53,491 nucleotides of DNA from positions 1 through 53,491 of the forward strand of contig JAHEZQ010000031.1 of NCBI GenBank assembly GCA_023250955.1, read 5' to 3'. Origin of the DNA: Melioribacter sp. Lineage in GTDB: Bacteria; Bacteroidota; Ignavibacteria; Ignavibacteriales; Melioribacteraceae. Position 1 is the stretch's first letter, and each line of letters begins with the position of its first letter. The notes below the pieces were generated by a model. That model was not told the origin of the DNA, ran no database searches, and saw only the letters and a list, made by a program, of their open reading frames with translations. This document shows, piece after piece, positions 9,749-48,390 of this stretch. Position numbers and translations under genes: made by a program.

Positions 9749-9988
9749 TTATCTAGCCTTAATCTTTTTCTCTTTAACAAGTTTTGCAATTTGAGATGTT
9801 CCGTTCTTCGATATAGTTCTCAGTGCACTTGCAGAAACTCTAACTGTAACGAATTTATTCAATTCTTTTACCCAGATTCTCTTTTTCTGAAGATTTGGCA
9901 GAAATCTCTTTTTTGTTTTGTTATGTGCGTGAGAAACACTATTACCAGCCACAGGACCAATGCCAGATACTTGACATCTTCTAGCCAT
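9749..9988 (-). CDS. rpmB: Large ribosomal subunit protein bL28
   Basis: A 79-residue basic protein with the bL28 signature: MARRCQVSG at the N-terminus, [20 protein letters not shown], then [11 protein letters not shown]. It is a component of the 50S subunit. A longer reading frame extends 38 codons upstream, but the ATG used here matches the family start and has AAAGAGG nine bases before it, so the extension is rejected. It is flanked by its own terminator and by the ferritin terminator upstream. Confidence 0.97.
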
Positions 9989-10064
9989 TTTAATAACCTC
10001 TTTAATTCGATTTTTGGTGGCGAAAAATAGTAAAAAATAACTTAACGAAAAAATTTTTGAATAA

Positions 10065-10090
10065 ATAAAAAAGGTGGCTAAAAAGCCGCC
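10065..10090 (-). terminator. Intrinsic terminator of the ferritin gene
   Basis: On the minus strand GGCGGCT-TTTT-AGCCACC (one G-T pair) is followed by a seven-base T run. It lies 20 bases downstream of the ferritin stop codon and upstream of rpmB, separating the two units. Confidence 0.85.
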
Positions 10091-10110
10091 CTTGTTGAAC
10101 AATTAAAAGA

Positions 10111-16605: not shown

Positions 16606-16723
16606 AATAAGTTTTTTCGTATTAATTTTAGAAATATAAAAATAAAGATTATAGATAAAAATAATCTTTTTAATAATGAATGAGGTTATGAATAGAGACA
16701 ATTATCATAAAAGGAAAAACAAA

Positions 16724-18079
16724 ATGAAAAAAACATTTTTAGTTGTAATAAGCTTGTTAATGATCTATGATTTGAATTATTCTCAGAACCAAAAGAATGA
16801 TGTAATACCGGATGAATCCGGATGTAATTACCCGGTCCCTTACAATATTCCTCAAGTGAAAGATATTAAAGAGGTGCTTGATAGAGTAAAGAATTATTTT
16901 GTCGAATCAACACCTTACAGGATTATTGATTCAAAAACTGGTAAGACAATTACAGATTTTTCCGAATCGAACAAAAACGCTGTAATTGACAACAGCAAGG
17001 GAGAGTTCAATCAATGGTCATACACGATGGGTGTTGTATATGCCGGTATGAATTTGGTTACTGAGGTAACCGGAGATAAATCTTTTGTTGACTATGCTAT
17101 TAAAAGTTATGATTTCATTTTTGATAGTCTTCCTTACTTCATAAAGATAGATAAAAAGTACGGTGCCAAAAAAGAACAATACAGTCAACTAATGCACATG
17201 GCGGCTTTAGATCATTGCGGTTCAATAGGCGCTGCATTAATAAGAACTTATGAAAAAAATAAAGATAAACGTTATCGCGATATGATTGATACGGTCGCTA
17301 ATTATATAAGTAAAAAACAGTTTCGTCTTGAAGATGGTACACTTGCTCGTGAGCGCCCTCAAGCTCAATCGCTATGGAGCGACGATTTTTATATGTCGGT
17401 CCCGTTCCTTGCTCAAATGGGAAAATTAACAGGAGACAAAAAATATTGGGATGATGCTGTAAAGCAAGTAATTCAATTATCGGAACGATTGTTCGACCGC
17501 GAAAAAAAAATATATGATCACGGATGGAATGCCTGCGAAGCAAAATACGATCCTAAATTTTATTGGTCACGCGCTAATGGATGGGCTATGATGGCTATGG
17601 CAGAACTGTTGACAGTTCTACCTCAAAATTACATTGGAAGGGAAAGAGTTGTAGACTTGATTAATTTGACCACACAGAAATTAGCAAGTTTGCAGGACGG
17701 CACAGGGTTTTGGCACCAAATGCTTGATAAAGAAAGTACATACATGGAAACATCGGGCACAGCAATGTTTGTATTCGCAATTGCACGCGGTATTAATAAA
17801 GGATGGATTGATTTTACATTTTCACCTATCGCATTGGCTGGATGGAACGCAATTGTTACAAAAGTTTTACCAAACGGTCAAGTCGACGGTACTTGCATCG
17901 GTACTACCTTTGCTAACGATAACGTATACTATTACAATAGGCCTACAAGCGTATATGCAATGCACGGCTACGGACCAGTTTTACTGGCAGGAGCAGAGAT
18001 GATCACTCTAATGAATAATCCAAAGTATGATGTAAAGCTTAACAAAGCAATTATGTATAGACTCAAAGAAAATAATTAA
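16724..18079 (+). CDS. GH105 unsaturated rhamnogalacturonyl hydrolase
   Basis: A 451-residue exported enzyme of the YteR/RhiN/YesR type. It removes the unsaturated galacturonic acid left at the non-reducing end of rhamnogalacturonan or galacturonan oligosaccharides after lyase action. Signal peptide about 1-20. The (alpha/alpha)6-barrel motifs include MHMAALDHCGS, RPQAQSLWSDDFYMSVPFLA (Asp at about 219-220 fits the catalytic acid position), YWSRANGWAMMAMAE and STYMETSGTAMF. The frame could begin 16 codons upstream, but the ATG chosen gives the signal peptide and has AAGGA upstream. It complements the lyase on the other side of the spacer. Confidence 0.93.
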   Translation: MKKTFLVVISLLMIYDLNYSQNQKNDVIPDESGCNYPVPYNIPQVKDIKEVLDRVKNYFVESTPYRIIDSKTGKTITDFSESNKNAVIDNSKGEFNQWSYTMGVVYAGMNLVTEVTGDKSFVDYAIKSYDFIFDSLPYFIKIDKKYGAKKEQYSQLMHMAALDHCGSIGAALIRTYEKNKDKRYRDMIDTVANYISKKQFRLEDGTLARERPQAQSLWSDDFYMSVPFLAQMGKLTGDKKYWDDAVKQVIQLSERLFDREKKIYDHGWNACEAKYDPKFYWSRANGWAMMAMAELLTVLPQNYIGRERVVDLINLTTQKLASLQDGTGFWHQMLDKESTYMETSGTAMFVFAIARGINKGWIDFTFSPIALAGWNAIVTKVLPNGQVDGTCIGTTFANDNVYYYNRPTSVYAMHGYGPVLLAGAEMITLMNNPKYDVKLNKAIMYRLKENN

Positions 18080-18466: not shown

Positions 18467-20791
18467 ATGTATAGAATTTTAAAAATATCTTGTATAATTT
18501 TTTTAGTGTTTTACAGTTTATCAGTTGCGCAGAACGATGGATACAAATTTAATGTTGATTGGAAATCGTTCCTTTCCAATCAAGATATGGTTTGGAAAGA
18601 TAAGCTTCCCAATGATTGGACAAACGGGCCATTCCTGGGTAATGGAATGTTAGGTAGTATGGTTTATTATATGCCGGATTCAAATGCAATTCGTTTTGAA
18701 ATGTGCCGTTCAGATTATGAAGATCACAGGGATTCAACTCAGGGGGAAACTCCATACAGAAAAGGCAGATTACCAATCGGTTATTTTTTATTAAAGCCTG
18801 TGGGAAAAATAATTACACAGAGCAATATGCGTCTCGATTTGCGGAATGCTGAATTAAATGCAAAGATAGTAACTGATAAAGGTAATATTATTTTCAAGTT
18901 TTATGTTCACACAAAAGAAATGTTAATTATTGTTGAGACGAATACGACCGGTGAAGAAGAAAAATTCAAGTGGGAATGGAAAGCTTTACCAGCAGTAAGT
19001 CCACGTCAGCAATGGGGGATAGCAAATAATGAACCGAATAGAATATTTATGGATTATAAAGCTAATCCTGATCCTATCATTTCAAAAATTGATGGAATAA
19101 AATATTGCGAACAAAAACTTCTTTTTGGAGGCCAAACAACAACTGCATGGAAGGAATTAATAAACGGATCGAAAAGAAATTTCCTAATAAACATAACTCA
19201 TTCATATCCTTCCAACACATCTACTCTAGATGCTGTGAAATATTTAAACTCATTTACAACCCTCGATTTTCAAAAACTGTCTACACAACATAAAACTTGG
19301 TGGAATAAATACTATCAAAGAAGTTTTGTATCACTGCCGGATGCAAAACTAGAAAGTTTTTACTGGATTCAGATGTATAAGCTTGCTTCTGCAACACGAG
19401 CAGATAGAGCATTAATAGATAATCAGGGTCCGTGGCTCGAAAAAAGCGCTTGGCCATATGCAACATGGAACTTAAATGTTCAACTTACATATTGGCCTGT
19501 TTATACTTCTAATAGGTTAGAAATAGGTGAATCGTTATTAAACACTCTGTGGAAGAATCGAGAGAATCTTAGAAAAAATATTCCACTACAATATCAAAAA
19601 GATTCATATGGTATTGGTAGAGCAACCGGAACGGATTGTGTTGCAAAGGTAGGTATTCCAGGTCTTGAAGGAAAAGGAACATGGATAGAGAACCAGCAAA
19701 ATATTCCCGAAGTTGGATTGCTTACATGGTCTTGTCATAATCTTTGGCTGCAATATCGGCATTCTATGAATAAAGAAATGTTACGGGAAAAACTTTATCC
19801 ATTATTAAAGGGTGCAATTAATTACTATTTGTATTTTCTAATAGTAGATGAAAAAGGTAAACTTCATTTACCACTAACATATTCCCCTGAATACAAAAAA
19901 ATGGCAGAGGATTGCAATTTTGATTTATCTTTATTGAAATGGGGATGCAGAACTTTAATTAAGATTACAGAAGAATTGTCTATTAACGATTCTCAAACAG
20001 AAAAATGGAAAAATGTTGTAGAAAATCTTACAGATTATCCTTCAGATGAAAACGGTTTTATGATTGGCAAAGATGTGCCTTATGATAAATCCCATCGTCA
20101 TTACTCTCACTTATTAATGATTTATCCTTTATATGAAGTAAATGTAGAACAAGTAGGCGGTGTAGAAATTATTGAAAAGTCACTCAAACATTGGCAAAGT
20201 TTAAGTGAACAAATGAGAGGTTTCTCTTATACAGGTGCTGCCTCAATTGCAGCTTCTTTAGGAAAAGGAAACGAAGCACTTTCTTATCTCAAAGATTTGT
20301 GGGAAGAGAAATTTTTATGTGCTAATACATTTTATGTTGAAAGCGGACCCGTAATTGAAACACCATTATCTGGAGCTCAGGCAATTCATGATATGCTGAT
20401 ACAAAGCTGGGGAGATAAAATTAGAATATTTCCCGCAATCCCGAATAAGTGGTATGATGTCAGTTTCGATAATCTAAGTGCTGAAGGTGGATTTCTTGTT
20501 AGCGCTTCAAGAAAAAATGGTAAGACGGAATTTGTAAAAATAGAGAACCGTGCTGGTGAACTTTGCATTATTAATCCAAACATTGAAGGGGAAGTTCAGA
20601 TCAAATCAACTGGCAATGTAAAGTTGGAAAAATCACAAAACGGTTTTTACAAACTCAAAATTAAGAAAGGTGAATCTGTAATACTTTATGAATCTTCCAC
20701 TAAGGATTTTTTAGTGCGACCGATTAATGTCGATAAAGAGAAAAATAATTATTTCGGTTCTGAAGCTATGAAACAAATAACCAATCAATAA
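18467..20791 (+). CDS. GH95-like alpha-L-fucosidase/alpha-L-galactosidase
   Basis: A 774-residue exported glycosidase related to GH95. It has a signal peptide (about 1-21), an N-terminal beta-sandwich (about 30-260, with WTNGPFLGNGMLGSMVYY) and an (alpha/alpha)6 catalytic barrel. The barrel holds WNLNVQLTYWP (about 334-344), where the N-x-N pair matches the catalytic asparagines of GH95; TYSPEY (about 471-476), where Glu matches the general acid region; and HRHYSHLLMIYPL (about 541-553). A C-terminal beta domain follows. GH95 enzymes are inverting and release terminal alpha-L-fucose or L-galactose. The overall match is to a divergent branch, so the sugar is uncertain. Near the 3' end the coding sequence looks normal. 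Confidence 0.75.
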   Translation: MYRILKISCIIFLVFYSLSVAQNDGYKFNVDWKSFLSNQDMVWKDKLPNDWTNGPFLGNGMLGSMVYYMPDSNAIRFEMCRSDYEDHRDSTQGETPYRKGRLPIGYFLLKPVGKIITQSNMRLDLRNAELNAKIVTDKGNIIFKFYVHTKEMLIIVETNTTGEEEKFKWEWKALPAVSPRQQWGIANNEPNRIFMDYKANPDPIISKIDGIKYCEQKLLFGGQTTTAWKELINGSKRNFLINITHSYPSNTSTLDAVKYLNSFTTLDFQKLSTQHKTWWNKYYQRSFVSLPDAKLESFYWIQMYKLASATRADRALIDNQGPWLEKSAWPYATWNLNVQLTYWPVYTSNRLEIGESLLNTLWKNRENLRKNIPLQYQKDSYGIGRATGTDCVAKVGIPGLEGKGTWIENQQNIPEVGLLTWSCHNLWLQYRHSMNKEMLREKLYPLLKGAINYYLYFLIVDEKGKLHLPLTYSPEYKKMAEDCNFDLSLLKWGCRTLIKITEELSINDSQTEKWKNVVENLTDYPSDENGFMIGKDVPYDKSHRHYSHLLMIYPLYEVNVEQVGGVEIIEKSLKHWQSLSEQMRGFSYTGAASIAASLGKGNEALSYLKDLWEEKFLCANTFYVESGPVIETPLSGAQAIHDMLIQSWGDKIRIFPAIPNKWYDVSFDNLSAEGGFLVSASRKNGKTEFVKIENRAGELCIINPNIEGEVQIKSTGNVKLEKSQNGFYKLKIKKGESVILYESSTKDFLVRPINVDKEKNNYFGSEAMKQITNQ

Positions 20792-21281
20792 TTAACAAAA
20801 ATGAGGTACCCTATACGAAAAGCAATAATAATTTTATCAGCGATTTATTAATGCTTGTGTTTTCCTATAAGGTTACGGCTCAGGAAAAATATTTTGAATG
20901 ATATTATATAATATTTTTATTTGATTGTTAGTACTATCGAAAGTTTTGAACGAGATAATATAAAATGTTTTGTTGATTGGACCGCACGATGTGATATTAA
21001 GATGTATGCGATTTCTAAAACATTTTTGGTAAAAACACGATCCGCAAATCATGACTCCAAATGCTCCATTCATGTAACAACTTACAAAGTGACCCCTTAT
21101 TATTTGAATACTCTATTATAGTATAGGAAATTTGTTTTTGAAATTTCTCTTAGTTCATTAAAAGCAGTTTTGGGATAAGATATGTTGATTTTATGAATCT
21201 AATAAAAAAGTCTTGTGTTTATTTTTTTTTTTTATTATTTACACGTGAAAGTTACCGAGTAAGTTGGATTTTTTATTAAGT
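20792..21281. other. Intergenic region upstream of the LacI-type regulator
   Basis: A 490-base AT-rich spacer with no supported gene; small opposing frames at 20873-21121 are spurious. A poly-T stretch precedes an ACACGTGA motif at 21241-21248, which could be half of a regulator operator, though such a hexamer is expected several times by chance in this window. The promoter for the sugar operon should lie here. Confidence 0.4.
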
Positions 21282-22307
21282 ATGGCACAAACAACACAAT
21301 CTGATATTGCAAAAAAACTTAATGTAACCCGTATTACAGTTTCAAAAGCCCTTCGAGATCATCCTGATATTTCAACCAAGATGAAAAAACTAGTGTGTAA
21401 GATGGCAGATGAACTTGGATATACCCCAAACCTTATCGCAAAAAATTTATCATCTAAAAAAACTTTTACTATTGGTGTTGTTGTCCCTGATTTGGAAAAC
21501 AGCTTTTTCGCTTATGTAGTCGACAGTATGATTGACGAAGCTTCAGAGAATAATTATCACATGATTCTCACGATCTCAAGAGAGAATGAACAGAATGAAA
21601 TTTCTAATATCCGAAACCTACTAGGAATGCGTGTAGATGGACTGCTCGTTTGCGTTTCTCAACAAACGAAAGATTCTCAGATCTATGATCAAGTAAATAA
21701 AATGAATATTCCTCTGGTTTTTTTTGATCGTCAAATAGAAGGACTCGGTTTCAACAATGTTAAGTTTAATGATAAAAAATGTGGAGAGCAGACTCTAGAT
21801 AAAATTATCCAGGAAGGATATGGAAGGATAGCCCATTTTGCAGGTTACACTAATGTAAGCATAGGAAGAGATCGTCTGGAAGCTTATCAATCTGCATTAC
21901 GCAAAAATAATCTCTCTATTAATAAGGAATGGATAATTGAAGGCGGCTTTGAAATAACAGATGGATACAATGCATTCATGAAAATGTATCAGAAAAAAGA
22001 TCTACCAGAAATTATTTTTACTGTAAACGACCGAGTAGCGTTAGGTGCCTATTCAGCTATAAAAGAAGTAGGCCTAAAAATTCCTGAAGACATTGGCTTA
22101 GTTGCATTTGGATTCAACGAAACGGCAAAAACTTTTATACCGCCATTAGCCATTATTAATCAAGACCCTCGGCAGATGGGTCATATTGCAGTCGATACTC
22201 TTATCAAGGTCATTAATCTAAATACAACAGAAAAGCCCCAAGAAATATTAATCGATGAAGAATTTGTATGGAATAGCTCAATTGTGAGAAAACAAAATAA
22301 AATTTAA
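21282..22307 (+). CDS. LacI-family transcriptional regulator
   Basis: A 341-residue sugar-responsive repressor/activator. The N-terminal helix-turn-helix and hinge (about 1-60: SDIAKKLNVTRITVSKALRD then GYTPNLIAKNLSS) are followed by a periplasmic-binding-protein-like effector domain (about 62-335; TIGVVVPDLENSFFA, GLLVCVSQ, FNDRVALGAYSA-like TVNDRVALGAYS, LVAFGFNE). An in-frame TTG six codons upstream is rejected because LacI proteins usually start one residue or so before the T-x-x-D-I-A motif. It is the first gene of a tightly spaced operon, so it probably controls the downstream sugar genes; the effector is unknown. Confidence 0.93.
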   Translation: MAQTTQSDIAKKLNVTRITVSKALRDHPDISTKMKKLVCKMADELGYTPNLIAKNLSSKKTFTIGVVVPDLENSFFAYVVDSMIDEASENNYHMILTISRENEQNEISNIRNLLGMRVDGLLVCVSQQTKDSQIYDQVNKMNIPLVFFDRQIEGLGFNNVKFNDKKCGEQTLDKIIQEGYGRIAHFAGYTNVSIGRDRLEAYQSALRKNNLSINKEWIIEGGFEITDGYNAFMKMYQKKDLPEIIFTVNDRVALGAYSAIKEVGLKIPEDIGLVAFGFNETAKTFIPPLAIINQDPRQMGHIAVDTLIKVINLNTTEKPQEILIDEEFVWNSSIVRKQNKI

Positions 22308-22330: not shown

Positions 22331-23332
22331 ATGGGAAAAATTATTATCGCCGGTGCTGGAGGATTTATTGGGGGACATTTGACAAAAGAGTTAACAGTTC
22401 TGGGAAATCAAATCCGTGCTGTTGATATCAAGCCGCTTAATAAATGGTATCAGATAAATCCTAAAGCTGAAAATTTAGTACTCGATTTACGTGAAAAAGA
22501 AAATTGTTACAATGCTGTCAATGGCTTCGATGAAGTATTTAATCTTGCTGCCGATATGGGTGGAATGGGTTTTATAGAAACGCATAAAGCCGCTTGTATG
22601 TTAAGTGTTCTTATAAATACACATTTGCTGATGGCTGCACGTGACAAAGGAATAAAAAGATATTTTTATGCGTCATCGGCTTGTGTTTATAATGGCGAAA
22701 AGCAAAGTGATCCTAATAATCAAGGATTGAAAGAATCAGATGCGTATCCGGCATTAGCTGAGGACGGATATGGATGGGAAAAATTATTTAGTGAAAGAAT
22801 GTGTCGTCACTTTAGAGAAGACCATGAGCTACGGACACGAGTGGCTCGCTTCCATAATGTTTATGGACCCTATGGAACTTATGATGGGGGAAGAGAAAAA
22901 GCTCCAGCGGCTATATGTAGAAAAATTATTGAGGCTAAATTATTTGATAAAAAAGAAATTGTTATTTGGGGAGATGGACATCAAACTCGCAGTTTTATGT
23001 ATATAGATGATTGTATCAAAGGTATTCTTGATATAATGAACAGTGACATTGAAGAACCGATAAATCTTGGAAGTAGCGAAATGGTTTCTATTAATCAGCT
23101 CGTTGATTATGTGGAAGAGATTGCCTCCCATAAACTAAAAAGAAAATACGATCTCAATGCTCCTAAAGGTGTAAGAGGTCGTAACAGCGATAATACTTTA
23201 ATAAGAAAATACCTTCATTGGGAACCTTCAATTTCTCTAAAAACAGGATTGAAGAAAACATATGATTGGATTGAACAACAGGTAATTGCTAGTAAAGAAA
23301 ATGACAATAGAAAAATTATTTTTAATGAATAA
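22331..23332 (+). CDS. GDP-mannose 3,5-epimerase-like NAD-dependent epimerase
   Basis: A 333-residue short-chain dehydrogenase/epimerase. It has a Rossmann GAGGFIGG motif (residues 8-15) and the SSAC segment (Cys118) with the YGWEK motif (Tyr147, Lys151). The blocks NLAADMGGMGF, FYASSACVY, LKESDAYPA, RFHNVYGPYGT and GGREKAPAA are shared with plant GDP-mannose 3,5-epimerase, which turns GDP-D-mannose into GDP-L-galactose/GDP-L-gulose. Cys118 corresponds to the epimerase catalytic cysteine. It lies 23 bases after the regulator. Reversal (GDP-L-galactose to GDP-mannose) is possible in principle. The actual substrate could be another nucleotide sugar. Confidence 0.85.
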   Translation: MGKIIIAGAGGFIGGHLTKELTVLGNQIRAVDIKPLNKWYQINPKAENLVLDLREKENCYNAVNGFDEVFNLAADMGGMGFIETHKAACMLSVLINTHLLMAARDKGIKRYFYASSACVYNGEKQSDPNNQGLKESDAYPALAEDGYGWEKLFSERMCRHFREDHELRTRVARFHNVYGPYGTYDGGREKAPAAICRKIIEAKLFDKKEIVIWGDGHQTRSFMYIDDCIKGILDIMNSDIEEPINLGSSEMVSINQLVDYVEEIASHKLKRKYDLNAPKGVRGRNSDNTLIRKYLHWEPSISLKTGLKKTYDWIEQQVIASKENDNRKIIFNE

Positions 23333-23356: not shown

Positions 23357-24493
23357 ATGAAAAGTAAAAAGGTACTCGTTAGCGGTTGTTTCGATTTATT
23401 TCACAACGGACACATTGCTTTTTTGAAAACGGCCTCTTCTTATGGGAGACTATATGTTGCTGTGGGTAAAGATGCCAACCTTTATCTACTAAAAGGTAAA
23501 AAACCATACTTTAATCAAGAAGAACGAGTATATCTAGTAAACTCAATCAAATATGTTGAAGATGCATTTCTTGCCACAGGATCGGGCGTGCTTGATTTTG
23601 AACCTGATTTAGAAAGAATCAAACCTGATATTTTTATTGTTAATTCTGATGGGCACACATTGGGAAAAAAAGCTCTTTGTAAAAAAAATGGTATCAAGTA
23701 TATCGTACTTGAAAGAATTCCTGAATCAGGTTTACCTGCAAGATCAAGTTCTAGTGCAAAACAAGAATTAGGTTTTCCGTATCGTTTATGTATCGCTGGT
23801 GGATGGATTGATCAACCATGGGTTTCTAAAATTCATCCGGGTTCTGTTGTTGTTGCACAACTTTGGCCAACGATTGAGTTTAATGACCGCTCAGGAATGG
23901 CAACCAGTTCACGTAAAGTTGCAATTCATCTTTGGGGTGATAGATATCCTGATGGTGATCCAATTGAAAATGCGAAACTCTTATTCGGCGCAGAAAATCC
24001 TCCTGGGGCGAAATACATTTCCGGTTCGCAGGATCATATTGGATTATTAAATCCAGGCATCAGTCGCTTATACTATGATGGTGGGTATTGGCCAGTAAAA
24101 ATAGACTCAAACGTAAGTGCAGATATTTGTGATTGGTTATCAAATACACTTCAATTTATTCCGCTCAGACCACGTCCCGATCATTATGATCCTTTAAAAG
24201 AAAAAAAAATAATTATGAAATTTGTTAAAAAATTGGGTGAAGCGGGGGAGAAATGCTGGACAAGTATTTTACGAAAAGATGTTAAAGGATTAGGTGAATC
24301 CATGACAGAAACTTTTCTCGCTTGGAAACAAATGCTGCCATACACTATTCCCGACTATGTAATGAGAGAAATGGAAACTAAGTATTTTCCTAACTATCCT
24401 GGTGCGATCACGACAGGAAGCGGAGGTGGGTATATAGTAGTTGCTACTGAAAGCAAAATAAAAGGATCAATAGAAATAAAAGTAAAATATTGA
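23357..24493 (+). CDS. Cytidylyltransferase-like / GHMP-kinase-like fusion protein
   Basis: A 378-residue two-domain protein. Residues 1-130 are a nucleotidyltransferase of the TagD/RfaE-C class with SGCFDLFHNGH (G10-H19, the HxGH nucleotide site) and a later RSSSSAK segment in place of the usual ISSTxI. Residues about 137-378 look like a GHMP kinase: LCIAGGWIDQP resembles the AGGWxDxPP motif of fucokinase-type enzymes, GMATSSRK resembles the GLGTSSA ATP loop, and ITTGSGGGY resembles the C-terminal glycine motif. This domain is short for the family, so activity is unproved. The design would phosphorylate a sugar at C1 and load it onto a nucleotide. It follows the epimerase by 24 bases. I do not know a characterised protein with this order. 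Confidence 0.72.
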   Translation: MKSKKVLVSGCFDLFHNGHIAFLKTASSYGRLYVAVGKDANLYLLKGKKPYFNQEERVYLVNSIKYVEDAFLATGSGVLDFEPDLERIKPDIFIVNSDGHTLGKKALCKKNGIKYIVLERIPESGLPARSSSSAKQELGFPYRLCIAGGWIDQPWVSKIHPGSVVVAQLWPTIEFNDRSGMATSSRKVAIHLWGDRYPDGDPIENAKLLFGAENPPGAKYISGSQDHIGLLNPGISRLYYDGGYWPVKIDSNVSADICDWLSNTLQFIPLRPRPDHYDPLKEKKIIMKFVKKLGEAGEKCWTSILRKDVKGLGESMTETFLAWKQMLPYTIPDYVMREMETKYFPNYPGAITTGSGGGYIVVATESKIKGSIEIKVKY

Positions 24494-24524: not shown

Positions 24525-24923
24525 TTGGGGAAAATAATCAAGCGTTATTGTAAAACGATGCAATTAATTGATGACCCTCGACTGATAGCAGAATATATAA
24601 AGCTTCATTCCTTAGGATCTGCTTGGCCCGAAATCACTGATGGAATGAAAGAAGTGGGAATCATTGATATGGAGATTTATCTATATGGAACAACACTTTT
24701 CATGATAATGGAAACTAAAGAAGATTTTGATCACGATAAAGCAATGACAAAACTTGCATCTCTTCCTCGTCAGAAAGAATGGGAAACAACTGTTTCGCTA
24801 TATCAAAAAACATCTCAAGAATCATCAGCTAAAGAAAAATGGATTTTAATGGAAAGGATTTACAAGCTTTGTCAAAATAAAGAATATAATGCAGAAGAAG
24901 GATATTGTGAAGAGATTAAATAG
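24525..24923 (+). CDS. L-rhamnose/L-fucose mutarotase-type protein (RhaM family)
   Basis: A 132-residue protein of the RhaM/YiiL family, which interconverts alpha and beta anomers of 6-deoxy-L-hexoses after uptake. Family features are the YCKTMQLIDDP N-terminus, a His in YIKLHSLGSAWPEI, and the central IYLYGTTLFMIMET strands. The last ~25 residues extend beyond the usual ~105. The start is TTG with GAGG five bases upstream and agrees with the family N-terminus; the next ATG would cut off the first strand. It sits in the LacI-led operon ahead of the symporter, consistent with an imported sugar. Confidence 0.87.
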   Translation: MGKIIKRYCKTMQLIDDPRLIAEYIKLHSLGSAWPEITDGMKEVGIIDMEIYLYGTTLFMIMETKEDFDHDKAMTKLASLPRQKEWETTVSLYQKTSQESSAKEKWILMERIYKLCQNKEYNAEEGYCEEIK

Positions 24924-24964: not shown

Positions 24965-26644
24965 ATGGTATCAATACCGCTGACACTTTTTGACTGGGGG
25001 ATATTAATTATTTATTTCTGTTTTATAGCTTGGATAGGATTTTATCTAAAAAGATTTACTAAAACGGATGATGATTTTTTCCTTGCAGGTAGAAGGAACA
25101 GCATGTGGGTTTGCGGGATAGCATTCATGTCAGCAAACATGGGTTCGATGGAAGTTATCGGTTATGCTGGTCAAAGTGTTAAGTACGGATTGTACGCTGC
25201 ACACTTTTATTTAATTGGTGCAATTCCTGCAATGCTTTTCCTTGGTGTTTTTATGATGCCATTCTATTATCATAGTAAGATCAAATCAATTCCAGGTTAT
25301 CTCAAAGCTAGGTTTAACGAAGGTGCTAGAGTATTCAATGCAGCAATGTTTGTTGTAAATATGATTTTGGTTTCGGGTATAGCTCTGTATTTACAGGCGC
25401 TTATATTTCATACATTTCTTGGTTGGAATTGGGATTTAAGTATTTGGCTTTCGGCAGCTTTCGTTGCTCTTTATGTTACTTTGAGTGGATTACTCTCAGC
25501 AATGTTCACAGAAATAATTCAGTTCTTTCTTATTTGGGCAGGTATAATGATTTTACCAATCTTAGGTCTTATCGATATTGGTGGACCGGCAGAAATTTCG
25601 AAAAATCTTTCACAAGCGTACACGACGCTCTGGTCGACATCAGGAAATCCACAAAACAATGCGATGTATGTAACTTGGGGTGGCTTAATTTTAGGATTAG
25701 GATTTGCGATTGCATTCGGTTATTGGACGACGGATTTTTTAATTATTCAGAGAGCATTTTCTGCAAAGGACCTGCGCTCAGCAAGAATGACTCCAATCAT
25801 CGGTTCATATTTTAAATTGCTGCTGGGATTTGTTGTTGTTGGCACTGGCATGATTGCATTGGTATTAATGAATAATCCCTCTAGCGGATTTAGTTTGCTT
25901 GTAGAAAATGGGAAAGTGAATTACGATTCAGTGATGCCTTTGTTAATGAAAAGATATTTTACGCCAGGACTGATTGGAGTTGGAGTAACATCTCTTGTTG
26001 CAATGTTCATGGCAGGAATGGCAGGAAATATGAGTTCTTTCAATGCCGTTTGGACTTATGATATTTATCACTCAGTCATAAATAAAAAAGCTTCAAATGA
26101 AAAACTTCTTCAAGTCGGACGAATTGCAACAGTAGCAGGGATTATCTTGAGTGTTGTAGGTGCTTATATCGCACGCAGTATGCCGAGTGTCATTGATTAT
26201 CTACAGGCAATCACTTCAATGTTTTTAGCACCATCAGTAGCTGTTATTCTTCTTGGAATGTTTTGGAAATGGATTACACCCAAGGGTGGATTGTGGGGTA
26301 TGTTGATTGGGACTTTTTTAGCTGTTGGATTATTTCTTGCTCAAGAATTTGGATGGATAAGTGTAGGTGCAATTGTGCCCGATTTCAATGGAACTAATGC
26401 TCAATCTTACATGGCTGCGAATTTGTGGCGTGCTGTTTGGGCATGGCTAATAGCAGCAGGCTCAGCAATCGTGATTAGTTTATTTACAATTAAAAAAACA
26501 GATGAAGAACTGACTGGGTTCGTACATGGACTAGTTGAAAAAATCGATGTTGAAGAAGAAAAAATCGGATTTTTTCAAAAGCCTTCTTTCTGGGCTACTG
26601 TTACGCTAATCATTTTTGTTATTATTAATTTATTATTATGGTAA
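24965..26644 (+). CDS. Sodium/solute symporter (SSS family), probably sugar
   Basis: A 559-residue inner-membrane protein with about 13-14 predicted helices. The SSS (SGLT/PutP) pattern starts with TxxDFFLAGRR-like DDFFLAGRRNSMW after helix 1, and continues with ANMGSMEVIGYAG, SIPGYLKARF and the FNAVWTYDIYH loop. SSS carriers move sugars, amino acids or organic acids with Na+. The strong ribosome site AAGAGGA precedes the ATG. The gene follows the mutarotase by about 40 bases, so the cargo is probably the sugar processed by this operon. Confidence 0.93.
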   Translation: MVSIPLTLFDWGILIIYFCFIAWIGFYLKRFTKTDDDFFLAGRRNSMWVCGIAFMSANMGSMEVIGYAGQSVKYGLYAAHFYLIGAIPAMLFLGVFMMPFYYHSKIKSIPGYLKARFNEGARVFNAAMFVVNMILVSGIALYLQALIFHTFLGWNWDLSIWLSAAFVALYVTLSGLLSAMFTEIIQFFLIWAGIMILPILGLIDIGGPAEISKNLSQAYTTLWSTSGNPQNNAMYVTWGGLILGLGFAIAFGYWTTDFLIIQRAFSAKDLRSARMTPIIGSYFKLLLGFVVVGTGMIALVLMNNPSSGFSLLVENGKVNYDSVMPLLMKRYFTPGLIGVGVTSLVAMFMAGMAGNMSSFNAVWTYDIYHSVINKKASNEKLLQVGRIATVAGIILSVVGAYIARSMPSVIDYLQAITSMFLAPSVAVILLGMFWKWITPKGGLWGMLIGTFLAVGLFLAQEFGWISVGAIVPDFNGTNAQSYMAANLWRAVWAWLIAAGSAIVISLFTIKKTDEELTGFVHGLVEKIDVEEEKIGFFQKPSFWATVTLIIFVIINLLLW

Positions 26645-27010: not shown

Positions 27011-28588
27011 ATGAAAAAGATTTCTACACTTCTCTTAATTGTTATGCTATTCCAGAATCAGATCTTTGGAAAAAATTATTCGACTAAAATTTACGATGTA
27101 CGTAATTATGGTGCTAAAGGGGATGGGAAAACATTGGACACACATAGTATTCAATTATCTATTGATGAGTGTAGTTCCGATGGAGGGGGCACCGTAATAT
27201 TGAGCAGTGGTAAGTTTTTGATAGGTACTATTTATCTTAAAAGTAATGTTACTCTTAGTATTTCTGCCGGGGCAGTTCTTTTGGGTAGCACCAAGATCAC
27301 TGATTATACTACCGATACGCATAAAAATATGTACAGAAATGAACCTCAGATGGATAGGTGTTTGATCTTTGCCAAAGACGCCAGTTCAATTTGTATTGAG
27401 GGACCAGGTGAGATAGACGGACAGGGCAACAGGAATAATTTTCCGAAATCTGGATTGAGACCAATGCTCATTCGTTTTTTGAATTGTAAAGATATCCACA
27501 TGAAAAATATCTCGTTGAAAAATCCTGCTGCATGGACTTCCGCATGGCTATACTGTTCTGACATTTTAGTTGACGGAGTTCGCATTCATAGTCGTGTTAA
27601 TGCTAATGGAGACGGTTTAGATTTTGATGGATGCCAGAACGTGCAAGTAAGTAATTGTACATTCGATACAAGTGATGATTCCATTTGTCTTCAAACATCC
27701 AGAACGGACAGACCTTGTAGAGATGTAGTTATCAGTAATTGCATTTTTAGTAGCCGATGGGCGGGTATTCGTATAGGATTACTTTCGCGTGGTGATTTCG
27801 AATCAGTGACAGTTAATAACTGTATATTCAAAAATATTGAGGATTCTGGTCTCAAGATACAAATGAATGAAGGCGGTAGGATGAAGGATATGATTTTTTC
27901 TAATCTGATAATGAGAAATGTTCCGAGACCTATATTTATGACTTTTTGCCAGCAGCGTGCATGTGTAGATGCCCCCAAAGAATTATTCCCAATGAAAGAG
28001 ATGCGGAATTTTATTTTTAAAAATTTCATCATTTCTTCCGACTCATGCGATAAAAATTCCGCAATAGTAATTTCAGGTTTGCCCAATCATCCCATTGAGG
28101 AAATAATACTAAGCGATATATATATGACTACTGGTGGCGGAGGTACAAAAGAAGATGCTGAAAAAAGAATACTAAGGGAATATACTCATGAAGAATTGGG
28201 ACGAGGATGGCCAGAATTTGGATTAATTGGAACGGTACCTAGTTATGGTATATATGCTCGTCATATTAAAAGCCTGACGATAAATAATATCAGAATTGAT
28301 GCCGCGAAAAAAGATGCCCGACCTGCAATTGTATTAGATGATGTAGCTGATGTAGAATTTAACGTCATACAGGCTAAAGTTGATCCATCAACTGAATCTG
28401 TTTTTAGGTTTCAAAATGTTCGGGACGCTAATATTCGTGATTGTAGCTTTAAGGAAAATTATAATTGCTTTCTTCGTATTGAAGGAAAGGATTCGAAGAA
28501 CATTAACATATTCAATTCATATTTCGAACAAACAATGTTCTCTCTTGGGAAGGAAGTAAAAAATGATGCAATTAAAATTTATAAGTAA
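27011..28588 (+). CDS. GH28-like pectin-active right-handed beta-helix enzyme, divergent
   Basis: A 525-residue exported parallel beta-helix protein of the polygalacturonase (GH28) type: signal peptide about 1-20, then the pectate-lyase-superfamily start YDVRNYGAKGDGKT. The GH28 motif NGDGLD and the later TSDDSICL (paired Asp) are intact. The canonical Gly-His-Gly is replaced by a RWAGIRIG segment, and the Arg-Ile-Lys motif reads GLKIQ. The acid pair is thus present while the His and Arg/Lys substrate-binding residues are missing. It may act on an unusual linkage or be a rhamnogalacturonan exo-hydrolase. GGGAGTG precedes the ATG. There is no sorting domain. Confidence 0.85.
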   Translation: MKKISTLLLIVMLFQNQIFGKNYSTKIYDVRNYGAKGDGKTLDTHSIQLSIDECSSDGGGTVILSSGKFLIGTIYLKSNVTLSISAGAVLLGSTKITDYTTDTHKNMYRNEPQMDRCLIFAKDASSICIEGPGEIDGQGNRNNFPKSGLRPMLIRFLNCKDIHMKNISLKNPAAWTSAWLYCSDILVDGVRIHSRVNANGDGLDFDGCQNVQVSNCTFDTSDDSICLQTSRTDRPCRDVVISNCIFSSRWAGIRIGLLSRGDFESVTVNNCIFKNIEDSGLKIQMNEGGRMKDMIFSNLIMRNVPRPIFMTFCQQRACVDAPKELFPMKEMRNFIFKNFIISSDSCDKNSAIVISGLPNHPIEEIILSDIYMTTGGGGTKEDAEKRILREYTHEELGRGWPEFGLIGTVPSYGIYARHIKSLTINNIRIDAAKKDARPAIVLDDVADVEFNVIQAKVDPSTESVFRFQNVRDANIRDCSFKENYNCFLRIEGKDSKNINIFNSYFEQTMFSLGKEVKNDAIKIYK

Positions 28589-40929: not shown

Positions 40930-42726
40930 ATGTTACACAATTGTTTTAAGAAAGTCATGATGTTTTTACTTCTACTCTTAGCAGTAGTAATCATGACGAA
41001 CAGCATGAAAGCACAACCGTATAAACCGAATTGGGAATCATTAAAACGTCATCAAACACCCCAGTGGCTTCAGGAGGGTAAGTTTGGCATCTACACACAC
41101 TGGGGAGTTTATGCAGTACATGCATTTGGTTCGAACACTACATGGTATTCTAATCAATTGTACAACAACCCGAATAGCCCGGCCCGAAAGGACTTTGAGG
41201 AAAGATTTGGCAAGCTCACGCCTGAATTTGGTTATAAGGATTTGATCCCAATGTTCAAGGCAGAGAAGTTCAATGCAGATGAATGGGCTGAATTATTCCA
41301 GCAAGCGGGCGCAAAATTTGCCGGCCCAGTTGCAGAACATCATGATGGATTTGCCATGTGGGATACAAAATATTCAGAATGGAACGCAGCAAAAATGGGT
41401 CCTCATAGAGATGTAGTCGGTGAGTTGTCAAAAGCAATAAAGAAACGTAACATGAAATTTGTAACTGCTTTCCATCATGCTGAGAATTGGATATTCTTCC
41501 CGGTGTGGGATAAACGTTATGATACTGGAAACCCAAAATATTCAGGGCTTTATGGACAGTATCATGAACAAGGTGCTATGCCCCCTGCACAGGAATCTAT
41601 TGATGAATGGTATAACAAAATTATAGAAGTGATCGATAAATACGGACCTGATTTTATCTGGTTTGATTTTGGACTCGACTACATGCCTGAAGGTTATGAA
41701 AAAGATTTTCTTGCTTACTATTATAATTGGGCAAAGAAAAATGGAAAAGAAGTTGTAGTAACATATAAAGATCATGATATTATTCCGGGTGCTGGAATTC
41801 GAGATTTAGAACTAGGTCAGTCACCTGATCTAGCCTATAATGAATGGATCACAGATACTTCTGTTGATGACCGTGGTGCATGGGGTTATGCGAATGATCT
41901 TACGTTTAAACCAACCAATCGGCTTATCGATAATCTAATCGATAACGTAAGTAAGAATGGTTATTTACTTTTAAATGTAGGTCCGAAACCGGACGGAACT
42001 ATTCCAGATGGGGCCAAAAAAGTGCTTCTTGAAATGGGTGGTTGGCTCCGAACAAATGGTGAAGCTATTTATAATACCACACCATGGTTCCTCTGGGGCG
42101 AAGGGCCGACCAACGTCGGTCAAATAGAACGTCAAGGTTTTAATGAATCAGCCAAAGTTCATACTGCTGAAGATATTCGTTTTACTACCAATGGTGATGT
42201 ACTTTATGCAACAGTCCTGGATTGGCCGGGTGACAGAGTGGTAATTAAATCAATACGTGCCGTTGGTCCTGAGGCTGATAAAGTAGTTATACCGGATTGG
42301 GCAAAAGGAGAAAAAGTAAAATCACTTGCCGGAACCCAATGGGATCTGCCAGGTACAGGAAGAGATACTGCAAAATATCATTATACGTTTAAAGAAAATG
42401 GTGAATTCCACATTTCGGGTGGCCGCTGGACTGCTGCTGGGGTTGATGGAAAATATGAACAAGTTGGTAAGGAAGTATTTCTAATTTTAGCTGGACGTTC
42501 ATCTCAAGCGAGTTATGATGGCGTCAAATTTGCAAGAAGTACCGCTCCACCGACTTATCCTGGATTTTACAAGGAAGAAATAAAACGGATTACAATGCTT
42601 GGCGACGGAAAAGAACTTGAATGGGTCTTGACCAAGCTAGGTCTAATAATTAAAACTCCGGAGAAGAAAGGCGATTATGCTTATTCATTTAAGATCGAAC
42701 GATATCATCATCCGAAACTTAAATAG
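40930..42726 (+). CDS. GH29 alpha-L-fucosidase with an inserted domain
   Basis: A 598-residue exported GH29 enzyme that releases alpha-L-fucose by the retaining mechanism. Signal peptide about 1-28; the TIM barrel includes FGIYTHWGVYAV, AGPVAEHHDGFAMW, VTAFHHAEN and WFDFGLD, whose Asp246 is at the nucleophile position. The C-terminal beta-sandwich carries an insertion of about 95 residues (roughly 450-550) absent from the tandem copy. The insert reads WDLPGTG, YHYTFKENGEFHISGGRW and KYEQVGKEVFLILAG, suggesting a small lipocalin-like beta domain. AGGAG lies before the ATG. It follows paralogue 2 after a 211-base spacer holding ACACGTGT at 40837. Confidence 0.92.
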   Translation: MLHNCFKKVMMFLLLLLAVVIMTNSMKAQPYKPNWESLKRHQTPQWLQEGKFGIYTHWGVYAVHAFGSNTTWYSNQLYNNPNSPARKDFEERFGKLTPEFGYKDLIPMFKAEKFNADEWAELFQQAGAKFAGPVAEHHDGFAMWDTKYSEWNAAKMGPHRDVVGELSKAIKKRNMKFVTAFHHAENWIFFPVWDKRYDTGNPKYSGLYGQYHEQGAMPPAQESIDEWYNKIIEVIDKYGPDFIWFDFGLDYMPEGYEKDFLAYYYNWAKKNGKEVVVTYKDHDIIPGAGIRDLELGQSPDLAYNEWITDTSVDDRGAWGYANDLTFKPTNRLIDNLIDNVSKNGYLLLNVGPKPDGTIPDGAKKVLLEMGGWLRTNGEAIYNTTPWFLWGEGPTNVGQIERQGFNESAKVHTAEDIRFTTNGDVLYATVLDWPGDRVVIKSIRAVGPEADKVVIPDWAKGEKVKSLAGTQWDLPGTGRDTAKYHYTFKENGEFHISGGRWTAAGVDGKYEQVGKEVFLILAGRSSQASYDGVKFARSTAPPTYPGFYKEEIKRITMLGDGKELEWVLTKLGLIIKTPEKKGDYAYSFKIERYHHPKLK

Positions 42727-42876: not shown

Positions 42877-44385
42877 ATGAGTATAAAAAAAAATAGCGGT
42901 TCAATCATTATTAATATTTTTGTGACAATCTTATTACTTCAATCTACGTCGTTCTCACAAAAATCAACTTACAAACCTACGTGGGAATCTTTGGGAAAAT
43001 ATCCTGTCCCTGAATGGTTTAGAGATGCCAAGTTTGGTATTTACACTCACTGGGGAATTTACTCTGTTCCTGCTTTTGGTAATGAGTGGTATCCTCGGAG
43101 GATGTATCTGAACGGTGATAAGATAAACAAGCATCACCAGGAAGTGTGGGGTGATCAAACAAAATTCGGTTATAAAGATTTTATTCCGATGTTCAAAGCA
43201 GAAAAATTTAATGCGGATGAATGGGCTGAACTGTTCGTCAAATCCGGGGCAAAATTTGCTGGACCTGTTGCAGAACATCACGATGGATTTCCAATGTGGA
43301 ATAGCAAATATGATTCTTACAATGCGTATCTAATGGGACCAAAGAGGGATGTAGTCGGTGAACTTGCGAAAGCCGTAAAAAAGAAAGGACTAAAATTAGT
43401 CACTTCGTTTCATCATGCCGAGAACTGGTTTTATTATCCCAAATGGAATGAAAAATTCGATACCGCAGATCCAAGATTTGTTGAATTATATGGGCCGGTT
43501 CATGATGTCGGTATGGATAATGATTCTGAAAAAAAATGGAAGAATAAACAAAAACCATCGCAAGAATACATGAAACTTTGGCACGATAAGTTGATTGAGG
43601 TAATTGATAAGTATGATCCCGATTTGATGTGGTTTGATTTTGGACTGGATTTTATTCAAGAATCTTTCATCAAGGATTACATTGCTTACTATTACAACAA
43701 ATCTGTAGAAAGAAAAAAACAAGTTGCTGTAACATATAAAGATCATGATTTACCGGCAGGAGTTGGCATAGTCGATTATGAAAGGGGAAGGGCAACCGAA
43801 CAAACTTATTTTGTTTGGTTAACTGATACTTCCGTTGGTGAAAGATCATGGTGCTACATCGATGGGGAAACATATAAACCTGTCAACACTTTGATAGATG
43901 TTCTGGTTGATATAGTAAGTAACAACGGATGTATGCTTTTGAATGTTGGACCTAAAGCTGATGGAACAATTCCGGATGAGGCAAAAGAAAGATTATCAGG
44001 TATGGGAGAGTGGTTAAAAGTAAATGGCGAAGCGATTTATGAAACCCGTCCGTGGACAACAATTGGAGAAGGTCCAACACGTTTGGAAAAAGCTGGATCC
44101 TTCAACGAGAAAAATGAAGTGACCTATACTGCTCAAGATATTCGTTTTACTACAAAGGGAAATGCATTATATGCAATATGTCTTGATTGGCCAGGTGAGA
44201 AATTGATTGTAAAATCATTAGCGCCTACCGGAACAACTGGCTCATTCGATGGTGAGATAAAATCAGTGATCCTACTTGGAGACGGAAAAGAACTTGAATG
44301 GCAACTAACAAAAGAAGGATTGGTTATTGTTCCACCAAAAAATAAACCATGTGATTATGCATTTACATTCAAGATTTCACGATAA
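42877..44385 (+). CDS. GH29 alpha-L-fucosidase, tandem copy
   Basis: A 502-residue exported GH29 enzyme, clearly homologous to its left neighbour. The sequence FGIYTHWGIYSV, the run FKAEKFNADEWAELF and the block AGPVAEHHDGFPMW are all shared, as is WFDFGLD (nucleophile Asp254). It lacks the ~95-residue insert and has an extra ~12-residue loop before the nucleophile (KKWKNKQKPSQEY). Signal peptide about 1-28. The pair could have different specificity for L-fucose or L-galactose positions; this is inference. Confidence 0.93.
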   Translation: MSIKKNSGSIIINIFVTILLLQSTSFSQKSTYKPTWESLGKYPVPEWFRDAKFGIYTHWGIYSVPAFGNEWYPRRMYLNGDKINKHHQEVWGDQTKFGYKDFIPMFKAEKFNADEWAELFVKSGAKFAGPVAEHHDGFPMWNSKYDSYNAYLMGPKRDVVGELAKAVKKKGLKLVTSFHHAENWFYYPKWNEKFDTADPRFVELYGPVHDVGMDNDSEKKWKNKQKPSQEYMKLWHDKLIEVIDKYDPDLMWFDFGLDFIQESFIKDYIAYYYNKSVERKKQVAVTYKDHDLPAGVGIVDYERGRATEQTYFVWLTDTSVGERSWCYIDGETYKPVNTLIDVLVDIVSNNGCMLLNVGPKADGTIPDEAKERLSGMGEWLKVNGEAIYETRPWTTIGEGPTRLEKAGSFNEKNEVTYTAQDIRFTTKGNALYAICLDWPGEKLIVKSLAPTGTTGSFDGEIKSVILLGDGKELEWQLTKEGLVIVPPKNKPCDYAFTFKISR

Positions 44386-46706: not shown

Positions 46707-48359
46707 ATGAGAGAAAAATCGTGCAGCAGATCATCATTTTTTCAAAAGAATAAATTTTATTATCTCTCAATAATTTTTGTTTTGCTAATTCCTGTGCTGA
46801 ACAATCTCTTTGCTCAGACCGAATTCAAATCAGGATTGGTAGGTGTCTGTTTCATCAATGCAGATTTAACAAAACCAAGAAGAGGAGAGTTGATTTACTC
46901 TTTGGATGAACTATGGAATGCTCAAAAAGGACATTCAAAAGAATTGTCTGCAAAATGGGAAGGATATCTAATTGCACCTGCAACTGGCGAAATGACATTT
47001 TCCGTCAGGACAAATAACCACTGCATTCTTAATATTGCAAACAAAAAAATTGCAGAAGCAATTGGTAAAAATTCGGACGGAGTGGGAAAGATAGAAATGA
47101 TCAAAGGGGATAAATATTTAATTACATTGATCTATAATCACAACGGAGAAGAGAACGGTTATCAAGAGATCAAATGGAAATGGGGTGATCAAGCTTTTGT
47201 CTCCGTGCCGGGAAAAAATACTGTCCATTCATTGGAACAGGAAAATTTTTATAATTGGATCGATGAACCGGATCTTGCAGCGATTGATTACTCGCAGTAT
47301 CTCAAAGTTACTTCAAAGAATTTAATTGTTTATAAAGAAGCCGGACGATTTGCCGGCTGGCCAGCTAACAACGGAATCTGGATGTGGGGAAATGAAATTT
47401 TAGTTGGATTTGAACAAGGGTATTTCAAGAAAAATGACAATGGACATTCGGTCGATACTAAACAACCAATATATAATGTTCTTGGAAGAAGTATTGACGG
47501 CGGAGAAACATGGACAATCGAAAATCCGGATAATTTTGTTGATGATGTAAAAAATCCAATTCCACTGACCGAAGAAATTAATTTTGCAAGTTCGGGATTT
47601 GCGCTGCGAAATAGCGATCAGAGTTTTTTCATCTCTTATGACCGCGGTAAAAAATGGAGCGGTCCGTATCCATACCCGGACTTTGGTAAAAAACTTACAT
47701 CCCGAACCGACTATCTCGTAAATGGAAAAAATGATTGCCAAATTTTCCTTTCTGCGAAAGAAGATAATGTTGTAACTGAAGCTTCATACCAGGATAGATC
47801 AATGTGTGTTAGAACAACTGACGGTGGAAAGACTTTCAAATTTCTTGGATGGATGACCGGTGAACCGATTGAAGTCAGATCGGTAATGTCGAGTACAGTT
47901 CGACTATCTGAAAATCAACTGGTGTCAATTATGCGCAGAAGACTTGATCAAAAATTTAATGACCGTCCATCGGCAATAAAAAATTGGATTGATGCATATG
48001 GTTCATCTGATAATGGAATTACCTGGAATTTTCTTAGTAAGGCTGCAGAGACTGATAGAGGAAACCACAACGGCAATCCTCCAAGTTTAGTTCGCTTAAA
48101 AGACGGACGATTATGTGTAACCTATGGATATCGATCGGTTCCATACGGAATCAGAGCTAAAATTAGCAACGATAACGGACAAAGTTGGAGTAAAGAAATT
48201 TTGCTTCGAGATGACGCTTTGACCTGGGATATCGGTTATACAAGATCGGTTGTTAGGTCGGATGGAAAAGTAGTAACGATTTACTATTACCATACAAAAG
48301 AAAATCCCGAACATTTTTTAGCGGCTACAATTTGGGATGCAAGTTCTATTAGTAAATAA
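46707..48359 (+). CDS. PA14-like plus Asp-box (sialidase-superfamily) beta-propeller protein
   Basis: A 550-residue exported protein. Signal peptide about 1-36; residues about 40-165 resemble a PA14 domain, often a carbohydrate-binding module. Residues about 190-550 form a six-bladed propeller with five Asp-box motifs (SIDGGETWTI, SYDRGKKWSG, TTDGGKTFKF, SSDNGITWNF, SNDNGQSWSK). Such folds include sialidases and pectin side-chain enzymes of the GH33-like group. No family-defining catalytic triad was confirmed, so the substrate is open. It precedes a GH141-like gene. Confidence 0.77.
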   Translation: MREKSCSRSSFFQKNKFYYLSIIFVLLIPVLNNLFAQTEFKSGLVGVCFINADLTKPRRGELIYSLDELWNAQKGHSKELSAKWEGYLIAPATGEMTFSVRTNNHCILNIANKKIAEAIGKNSDGVGKIEMIKGDKYLITLIYNHNGEENGYQEIKWKWGDQAFVSVPGKNTVHSLEQENFYNWIDEPDLAAIDYSQYLKVTSKNLIVYKEAGRFAGWPANNGIWMWGNEILVGFEQGYFKKNDNGHSVDTKQPIYNVLGRSIDGGETWTIENPDNFVDDVKNPIPLTEEINFASSGFALRNSDQSFFISYDRGKKWSGPYPYPDFGKKLTSRTDYLVNGKNDCQIFLSAKEDNVVTEASYQDRSMCVRTTDGGKTFKFLGWMTGEPIEVRSVMSSTVRLSENQLVSIMRRRLDQKFNDRPSAIKNWIDAYGSSDNGITWNFLSKAAETDRGNHNGNPPSLVRLKDGRLCVTYGYRSVPYGIRAKISNDNGQSWSKEILLRDDALTWDIGYTRSVVRSDGKVVTIYYYHTKENPEHFLAATIWDASSISK

Positions 48360-48390
48360 ATTTTTGTATTCAATTAAAAACGAGAGTACG

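Follow-up and report, generated by a model that had tools for sequence, protein, structure and literature searches.

In Bacteroides fragilis, the L-fucokinase/GDP-fucose pyrophosphorylase Fkp places a nucleotidyltransferase in front of a GHMP kinase (PMC11982464), and the same order is found in the protein described here (P0001), which is encoded in a stretch of 53,491 nucleotides from Melioribacter sp. (the window). The two proteins have the kinase fold and its sugar-binding and catalytic residues in common, but Fkp is 949 residues long with an N-terminal half of the NTP_transferase/beta-helix type, whereas P0001 starts with an HxGH domain of 130 residues and its kinase is about 86 residues shorter than that of Fkp between motif 1 and the phosphate loop. 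HldE also has an HxGH nucleotidyltransferase domain, but its kinase, of the PfkB/ribokinase type, comes first and the HxGH domain last, the reverse of P0001. The heptose kinases HddA and WcbL resemble the kinase half in their GHMP fold (Z 17-22), but they are single-domain proteins, the two HddA-type sequences compared have no motif-1 Trp, and they are without the deletion seen in P0001, the distance from the motif-1 Asp to the base Asp being 140 residues in 4n3o and 74 in P0001. TagD and ethanolamine-phosphate cytidylyltransferase share fold and HxGH motif with the first domain, but they use CTP with glycerol-3-phosphate or phosphoethanolamine and have no kinase attached. An earlier note on this DNA had held that known sugar-activating fusions use another domain order or kinase fold, which is right for HldE; the order of Fkp was misjudged, since Fkp likewise has an N-terminal pyrophosphorylase and a C-terminal GHMP kinase (PMC11982464), and only the nucleotidyltransferase fold differs. 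A Pfam scan of P0001 gave no match to PF07959 (Fucose_pyrophosphorylase), and by the N-terminal domain tested, which is PF01467, P0001 is not an Fkp; what sets it apart is the type of its nucleotidyltransferase and its trimmed kinase.

In the Leloir pathway of D-galactose (GalK, GalT and GalE), the sugar is phosphorylated at C1, converted to a nucleotide sugar, epimerised in that form and released as a common hexose phosphate. The L-galactose route that we propose for P0001 follows the same logic of steps, but it handles an L-sugar, uses GDP and not UDP, depends on a 3,5-double epimerase and has the kinase and the nucleotidyltransferase in one chain. A gene set of the Leloir type (kinase, nucleotidyltransferase and nucleotide-sugar epimerase) is encoded together at 27 of the 29 loci of the P0001 clade, with a gene for GDP-mannose 3,5-epimerase (GME) adjacent. 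Oxidative catabolism of L-galactose has been described in Luteolibacter LG18, where LguA to LguH act by way of L-galactonate and tagaturonate (PMC12632266); it starts from the same sugar, and the text of that paper does not contain the term "GDP".

Table 1. Features of the fusion gene and of its neighbours, with positions in the window
Feature	Position	Strand	Basis
Fusion gene, HxGH nucleotidyltransferase + GHMP kinase (P0001), 378 aa	23357..24493	+	ORF (bounds exact, ATG start, TGA stop), Pfam, model, structure match
Nucleotidyltransferase domain, residues 1-130	23357..23746	+	HxGH at 23402-23413; K46, R57 invariant
GHMP kinase domain, residues 139-378	23771..24490	+	Family profile, alignment, models
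Motif 1 AGGWIDQP (W150, D152), residues 147-154	23795..23818	+	Aligns with Fkp AGGWTDTP
Phosphate loop GMATSS, residues 180-185	23894..23911	+	31 residues past D152
GSQDH, Q225 and D226 (predicted general base)	24023..24037	+	Motif, spacing
Motif 3 TGSGGG, residues 353-358	24413..24430	+	Motif
GH88-family (GH88/105-type) hydrolase	16676..18079	+	PF07470 E 1.6e-81
GH95-type hydrolase	18467..20791	+	PF22124 E 1.5e-33
LacI-family regulator	21264..22307	+	PF00356, PF00532
GDP-mannose 3,5-epimerase (GME)	22331..23332	+	phmmer E 4.2e-95 to Arabidopsis GME 2c59; catalytic Ser, Cys, Tyr, Lys, Lys, Arg present
RhaM-family sugar mutarotase	24525..24923	+	PF05336 E 1.4e-25; far below TIGR02625 cut-off
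Sodium:solute symporter	24965..26644	+	PF00474 E 2.5e-51; TIGR00813 above cut-off
GH28 hydrolase, rhamnogalacturonidase-like, below NCBIfam cut-off	27011..28588	+	Pfam, NCBIfam
GH29 L-fucosidase-type hydrolase	40930..42726	+	PF01120 E 2.1e-95
GH29 L-fucosidase-type hydrolase	42877..44385	+	PF01120 E 1.6e-105
GH141-like beta-helix protein	48337..50658	+	PF21231 E 5.2e-9, over cut-off

The N-terminal domain scores over the Pfam cut-off for CTP_transf_like PF01467 (E 1.6e-11, residues 8-98), has its HxGH motif as H16-N-G-H19 and, in an AlphaFold2 model of the full-length protein (mean pLDDT 88.2, pTM 0.68), superposes on TagD 1coz with Z 18.2 over 125 aligned residues at 1.9 A (VIA-align). H16, G18 and H19 are kept in 50 of the 51 full-length family members, the remaining one being truncated, and K46 and R57 in all 51, so that motif, catalytic Lys and Arg, and fold all place this half among the HxGH domains. 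The C-terminal half had no GHMP match in the Pfam scan, even at E<=1. In the full-length model it superposes on the Fkp kinase 9iip (Z 20.1, 223 aligned, 2.9 A) and on WcbL (Z 22.1; both VIA-align), and when modelled alone (pLDDT 93.3, pTM 0.92) it matches WcbL (Z 20.8, 234 aligned, 3.1 A), Fkp (Z 19.7, 223 aligned, 3.0 A) and galactokinase 1s4e (Z 19.4). Among solved structures, a family-profile search picked up TagD-like proteins, Fkp at E 1e-5 and, at E 7e-5, a kinase of the HddA type; in the HMMER alignment motif 1 of P0001 falls on that of Fkp. Judged by these models, both halves are real domains, and the second is, in fold and motifs, a predicted GHMP kinase that lacks one segment. The earlier description of an HxGH nucleotidyltransferase (residues 1-130) ahead of a GHMP-like region with three named motifs is thus borne out.

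Beyond its fold, the first domain shows similarity to rfaE domain II (E 1.8e-12, at 47 bits against a cut-off of 181.5), and the HldE profile matches it only at profile positions 341-407 of 475, with 37 bits against a cut-off of 521. In the family-profile search its closest HxGH relatives were CTP users. We infer GTP as the most likely nucleotide of P0001 solely from its GDP-sugar partners: Gmd, Fcl and GME make a GDP product likely, although the domain itself looks like that of CTP users. P0001 has matches at E<=1e-3 in 56 of 57 relatives' genomes, most of them confined to residues 2-121, in separate TagD/HldE-like proteins, and six of the 57 have full-length matches. On plasmids, tblastn returned 57 records, none with a single place covering 80% of the query; the matches of the best 20 of these 57 stay within residues 1-153, in other words in the first domain.

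Within the kinase half, R143, W150, D152, G223, Q225 and D226 are identical in all 51 full-length members, as is S184 of the phosphate loop, and position 213 is Glu in 46 members and Asp in five. Residues R143, W150, D152, E213, G223, Q225 and D226 correspond to Fkp R592, W599, D601, E751, G759, Q761 and D762, motif 1 being matched by the HMMER alignment and the rest, including E213, Q225 and D226, by motif and spacing; the active-site residues of L-fucokinase are therefore present, with the exception of Fkp T602, which is Gln153. In Fkp, W599 stacks on the sugar, D601 reaches the 3- and 4-hydroxyls and Q761 the 4-hydroxyl, D762 is the base and R592 contacts the transferred phosphate; activity is not detectable in E751A and D762A, the Km for ATP is 1.8 mM, and L-galactose is taken about 100-fold less well than L-fucose (PMC11982464). 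With these sugar-binding and catalytic residues kept, it is plausible, as the earlier note had supposed, that one chain takes a free sugar through both steps to the nucleotide sugar.

Between the motif-1 Asp and the phosphate loop lie 31 residues in P0001; three ordinary GHMP kinases of two genomes (G000 and G700) have 88-90 there, and Fkp has 117 by the numbering in PMC11982464. The stretch that separates the phosphate loop from the base Asp has kept its length (43 residues, 44-48 elsewhere). The shortening is a property of the family, W150 and A182 lying 32 residues apart in 50 of 51 members and 33 in the other. The 57-86 residues that are absent cover the adenine contacts modelled in Fkp (D644, M645, P666 and I669, with L722), except for L722 (PMC11982464). 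The sample of ordinary GHMP kinases comprised 8 ORFs called by a longest-ORF rule. Four of them (L126, L127, L129 and L130) seem to be other proteins, L132 does not enter the spacing comparison, and the remaining three were used. Aligning ordinary GHMP kinases of the same genomes with the fusion family by hhalign gave nothing useful, the best probability being 6%. As regards fold and ATP site, on which the earlier note had let its reading depend, the GHMP fold and the phosphate loop are there and the stretch modelled to hold the adenine in Fkp is not, which means that the site has lost its base end and retains its phosphate end. The protein may nonetheless use ATP while contacting the base only weakly, it may get help from its other domain or from a second chain, or it may take a different donor; the missing segment invites the well-defined question of which parts a GHMP kinase requires. 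Two loci have kinase-only versions without the nucleotidyltransferase domain (L027:3941-4750, directly after GME, and L031:8994-9728), which argues against the attached domain being indispensable. In the genome of the former (2.5 Mb) no nucleotidyltransferase was found at E<=1e-5, and that of the latter has two weaker TagD/HldE-like matches.

A scan of genome contigs found 34 loci with relatives of P0001, of which 27 were taken as full length into alignment A1. In the class of the window, 24 of 391 genomes have a member (E<=1e-40), and in a sample of the phylum, with P0001 as the single query, three of 395 do (E<=1e-30), which makes the family patchy. According to record titles its members extend to Bacteroidales, Prolixibacteraceae, Phycisphaerales, Verrucomicrobiales and Oscillospiraceae, and the fusion is an old family. 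That it might be a chance join or an artefact of annotation was ruled out by the many full-length relatives in several taxonomic groups. A FastTree phylogeny of the 51 full-length members, split at its midpoint, gives clade 1 (n=29), which includes the window, and clade 2 (n=22). Eight fragments stayed outside the tree (L024, L027, L029, L031, L033, L034, L117 and L118), and GME is adjacent at five of these eight.

Neighbourhoods were compared at 61 loci, 59 of them with a called fusion ORF; in the other two (L106 and L109), which enter no tally, long antisense ORFs mask the fusion, and tblastn finds it in both. Labels for the neighbours come from phmmer against 20 reference genes (the tallies count matches of >100 bits), a selection of members was also scanned against family models, and some neighbourhoods end at contig ends; because related loci are not independent, we attach no p-value to the counts. 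GME is adjacent (same strand, <400 bp) at 27 of 29 clade-1 loci, L015 and L020 being the exceptions, compared with two of 22 clade-2 loci. Counting five genes to each side, the clade-1 loci have GH29 or GH95 (22/29), LacI (21/29), RhaM (8/29), FucP or an SSF transporter (8/29) and ManC (3/29), and neither FucI nor Gmd with Fcl at any of the 29. The same distance in clade 2 covers RhaM (11/22), FucP or SSF (7/22), GH29 or GH95 (5/22), Gmd with Fcl (3/22), FucI (2/22) and LacI (1/22). Across the class, GME-like matches of any kind (E<=1e-60) occur in 40 of 391 genomes, and GMEs at least 79% identical to that of the window in six; precisely these six carry a clade-1 fusion, next to the GME every time, and no other GME-like match exceeds 55% identity. 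Among 36 GME-like sequences aligned, 34 have all six of the residues (Ser, Cys, Tyr, Lys, Lys and Arg) named as catalytic in plant and bacterial GMEs (PMC6678494), the exceptions being the truncated sequence of L101 and the second epimerase of L105 (95 bits), which differs.

GH95 is a family of L-fucosidases and L-galactosidases, and the hydrolases of the window (GH95, two GH29, GH141-like, GH28 and GH88/105-type) suit pectin of the RG-I/RG-II kind. Side chain A of RG-II bears a terminal L-galactose (PMC8787198) and is acted on by a GH141 enzyme (PMC10154630). Telling L-galactosidase from L-fucosidase by the GH95 sequence was given up, as the single residue proposed for this is reported not to decide specificity (PMC8245568).

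The gene next door, GME, on which the earlier note had not drawn, is the strongest clue to what P0001 does. GME takes GDP-mannose to GDP-L-galactose and back, with an equilibrium described as unfavourable for ascorbate synthesis in the forward direction (PMC8787198). With a kinase and nucleotidyltransferase for an L-galacto-sugar beside GME in an operon of catabolic appearance, the simplest reading leads from L-galactose through L-galactose-1-phosphate and GDP-L-galactose to GDP-mannose. P0001 is thus probably, though by no means certainly, a bifunctional L-galactose kinase/L-galactose-1-phosphate nucleotidyltransferase, most likely GTP-using, for the first two steps of a Leloir-like catabolism of L-galactose; both the sugar and the direction we infer from the neighbours, and L-fucose and L-galactose were among the candidates that the earlier note had, by this reading, rightly guessed. 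GH95, GH29 and GH141-like hydrolases would release L-galactose and L-fucose from pectin-type glycans, the symporter would bring the sugar in, and the RhaM-family protein would interconvert its anomers. The GHMP domain would then put a phosphate on C1 of L-galactose, with W150 stacking on the sugar, D152 reaching its 3- and 4-hydroxyls, D226 as the base and R143 on the transferred phosphate, and the HxGH domain would couple the sugar-1-phosphate to the nucleotide. GME, in reverse, would turn GDP-L-galactose into GDP-D-mannose, from which a mannose-1-phosphate guanylyltransferase would use pyrophosphate to make GTP and mannose-1-phosphate, feeding glycolysis.

The later steps have candidates in these genomes. 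ManC-like proteins lie near the fusion in three relatives (L017, L018 and L025, with 328, 330 and 269 bits), and the genome of the window has one (348 bits) outside the locus, together with two PGM/PMM proteins; all four score below the TIGR01479 cut-off of 373, which models a longer, two-domain protein. At L018 the gene row reads GME, fusion, ManC, FucP (over the TIGR00885 cut-off), RhaM and GH29, and L017, which belongs to a cultured relative, Maribellus sp. YY47, has GME, fusion, ManC, a permease and RhaM. No FucI was found in the genome of the window. In titles and abstracts of the open-licence PMC literature, our search returned nothing on an L-galactose kinase, a catabolic route through GDP-L-galactose or an HxGH-GHMP fusion, and as far as this literature goes the Leloir-like route would be undescribed; one kiwifruit review uses the words "GDP-L-galactose pyrophosphorylase". 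The proposal would give bacteria that eat the rare sugar L-galactose from plant cell walls a nucleotide-sugar route, and bacterial GME, for which lipopolysaccharide and antibiotic synthesis have been proposed (PMC6678494, PMC8787198), a likely catabolic job. It also puts on offer a short enzyme for making GDP-L-sugars.

Several contexts of clade 2 point to L-fucose. Two of its loci (L059 and L060) lie in L-fucose operons with FucI, an aldolase, an FGGY kinase and a RhaM-type protein, to which L059 adds FucP; three others (L030, L103 and L105) adjoin Gmd and Fcl, the latter scoring 478-499 against a cut-off of 500, and many have no labelled partner besides RhaM or a transporter. In both clades, then, the partners handle GDP-sugars or L-fucose. 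PF07959 was over its cut-off in none of 10 fusion genomes and in one of 14 control genomes. From its sequence context, clade 2 would be the version for L-fucose, making GDP-L-fucose in place of Fkp, and it suggests a means by which bacteria without Fkp activate this sugar.

These contexts also lend something to the reading that both clades are Fkp analogues for L-fucose, with P0001 making GDP-L-fucose from the free sugar and the adjacent GME serving another purpose. The active-site residues are those of L-fucokinase, GH29 and GH95 include L-fucosidases, and clade 2 keeps the company just described; this reading is nevertheless rather unlikely, as GME adjacency marks clade 1, the genome of the window holds a separate clade-2 copy (L055) next to FucP and RhaM, and three genomes (G000, G517 and G542) each hold one copy per clade, suggesting divided labour. 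The L-galactose route itself has to accommodate L015 and L020, the nearest HxGH relatives that use CTP, the absent adenine segment and L023, a verrucomicrobial clade-1 locus that looks biosynthetic. At L023 (6346-15078), the fusion and GME lie, by eye, beside sugar-nucleotide, sulfate-activation-like and CDP-glucose-dehydratase-like genes in an apparent polysaccharide-synthesis cluster, where GDP-L-galactose may be used for polysaccharide. Were this general, GME and fusion would both supply GDP-L-galactose for the cell's own polysaccharides, by biosynthesis or salvage, in line with the roles proposed for bacterial GME and with the loci that pair clade 2 with de novo GDP-L-fucose genes (L030, L103 and L105). 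No glycosyltransferase was recognised among the scanned genes of the window, and it and most clade-1 loci come with LacI and hydrolases, for which reasons we regard such a role as distinctly improbable here.

Other alternatives concern the chemistry of P0001 itself. The loss of Fkp's modelled adenine contacts and the lack of a Pfam match would fit a GHMP-like half that is no longer a kinase and merely binds a sugar or sugar-1-phosphate for the nucleotidyltransferase, but the catalytic Asp, phosphate-loop Ser and Arg are kept in 51 of 51 members, and the kinase-only proteins would be hard to explain if the domain served only the other half, so this is very unlikely. A heptose enzyme of the HldE/HddA type is less probable still, to the point of being nearly negligible: the likeness of the first domain to rfaE domain II and of the kinase fold to WcbL and HddA speaks for it, but the rfaE score is far below its cut-off, two HddA-type kinases have AGGGTD or AGGGSD in place of the AGGW shared by the fusion and Fkp, and the GME and L-fucose contexts do not fit. 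There is also a slim chance that the trimmed kinase, holding no ATP by its base, uses inorganic pyrophosphate or the tail of any NTP and recycles the pyrophosphate of the first domain for the next L-galactose, with L-galactose and GTP giving GDP-L-galactose and Pi as the net reaction. ForT 6yqq, a GHMP-fold protein among the structural matches, is by its title a PRPP complex, which indicates that the fold can serve ligands other than ATP, and the kinase-only proteins count somewhat against the idea. If true, P0001 would be a pyrophosphate-cycling sugar-activating enzyme, with a donor chemistry new to GHMP kinases.

Some minor observations concern the clade-2 loci and the remainder of the window. 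A divergent GME, 43-46% identical to that of the window, adjoins three clade-2-type fusions (L104:7884-8837, L105:7285-8247 and L106:1518-2465), making GME an imperfect marker of clade; its catalytic residues were checked in L104 and L105, and in L105 it stands alongside Gmd and Fcl. Its substrates might be GDP-6-deoxy sugars, with the conversion of GDP-L-fucose to GDP-D-rhamnose as one example. In the L-fucose operon of L059, positions 9723-10484 encode a protein of 254 residues that begins like a leader peptide and matches RhaM over residues 40-140 by Pfam; it may be an exported mutarotase. In the window, four large proteins (37214-39304, 39324-40718, 44471-46552 and 50714-53299) look alike by eye; a LamG-like domain was found by Pfam in the first and the third, and the second had no Pfam match. 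The part that the four share is without a Pfam name in the three that were scanned, and they are perhaps hydrolases or lyases of the locus.
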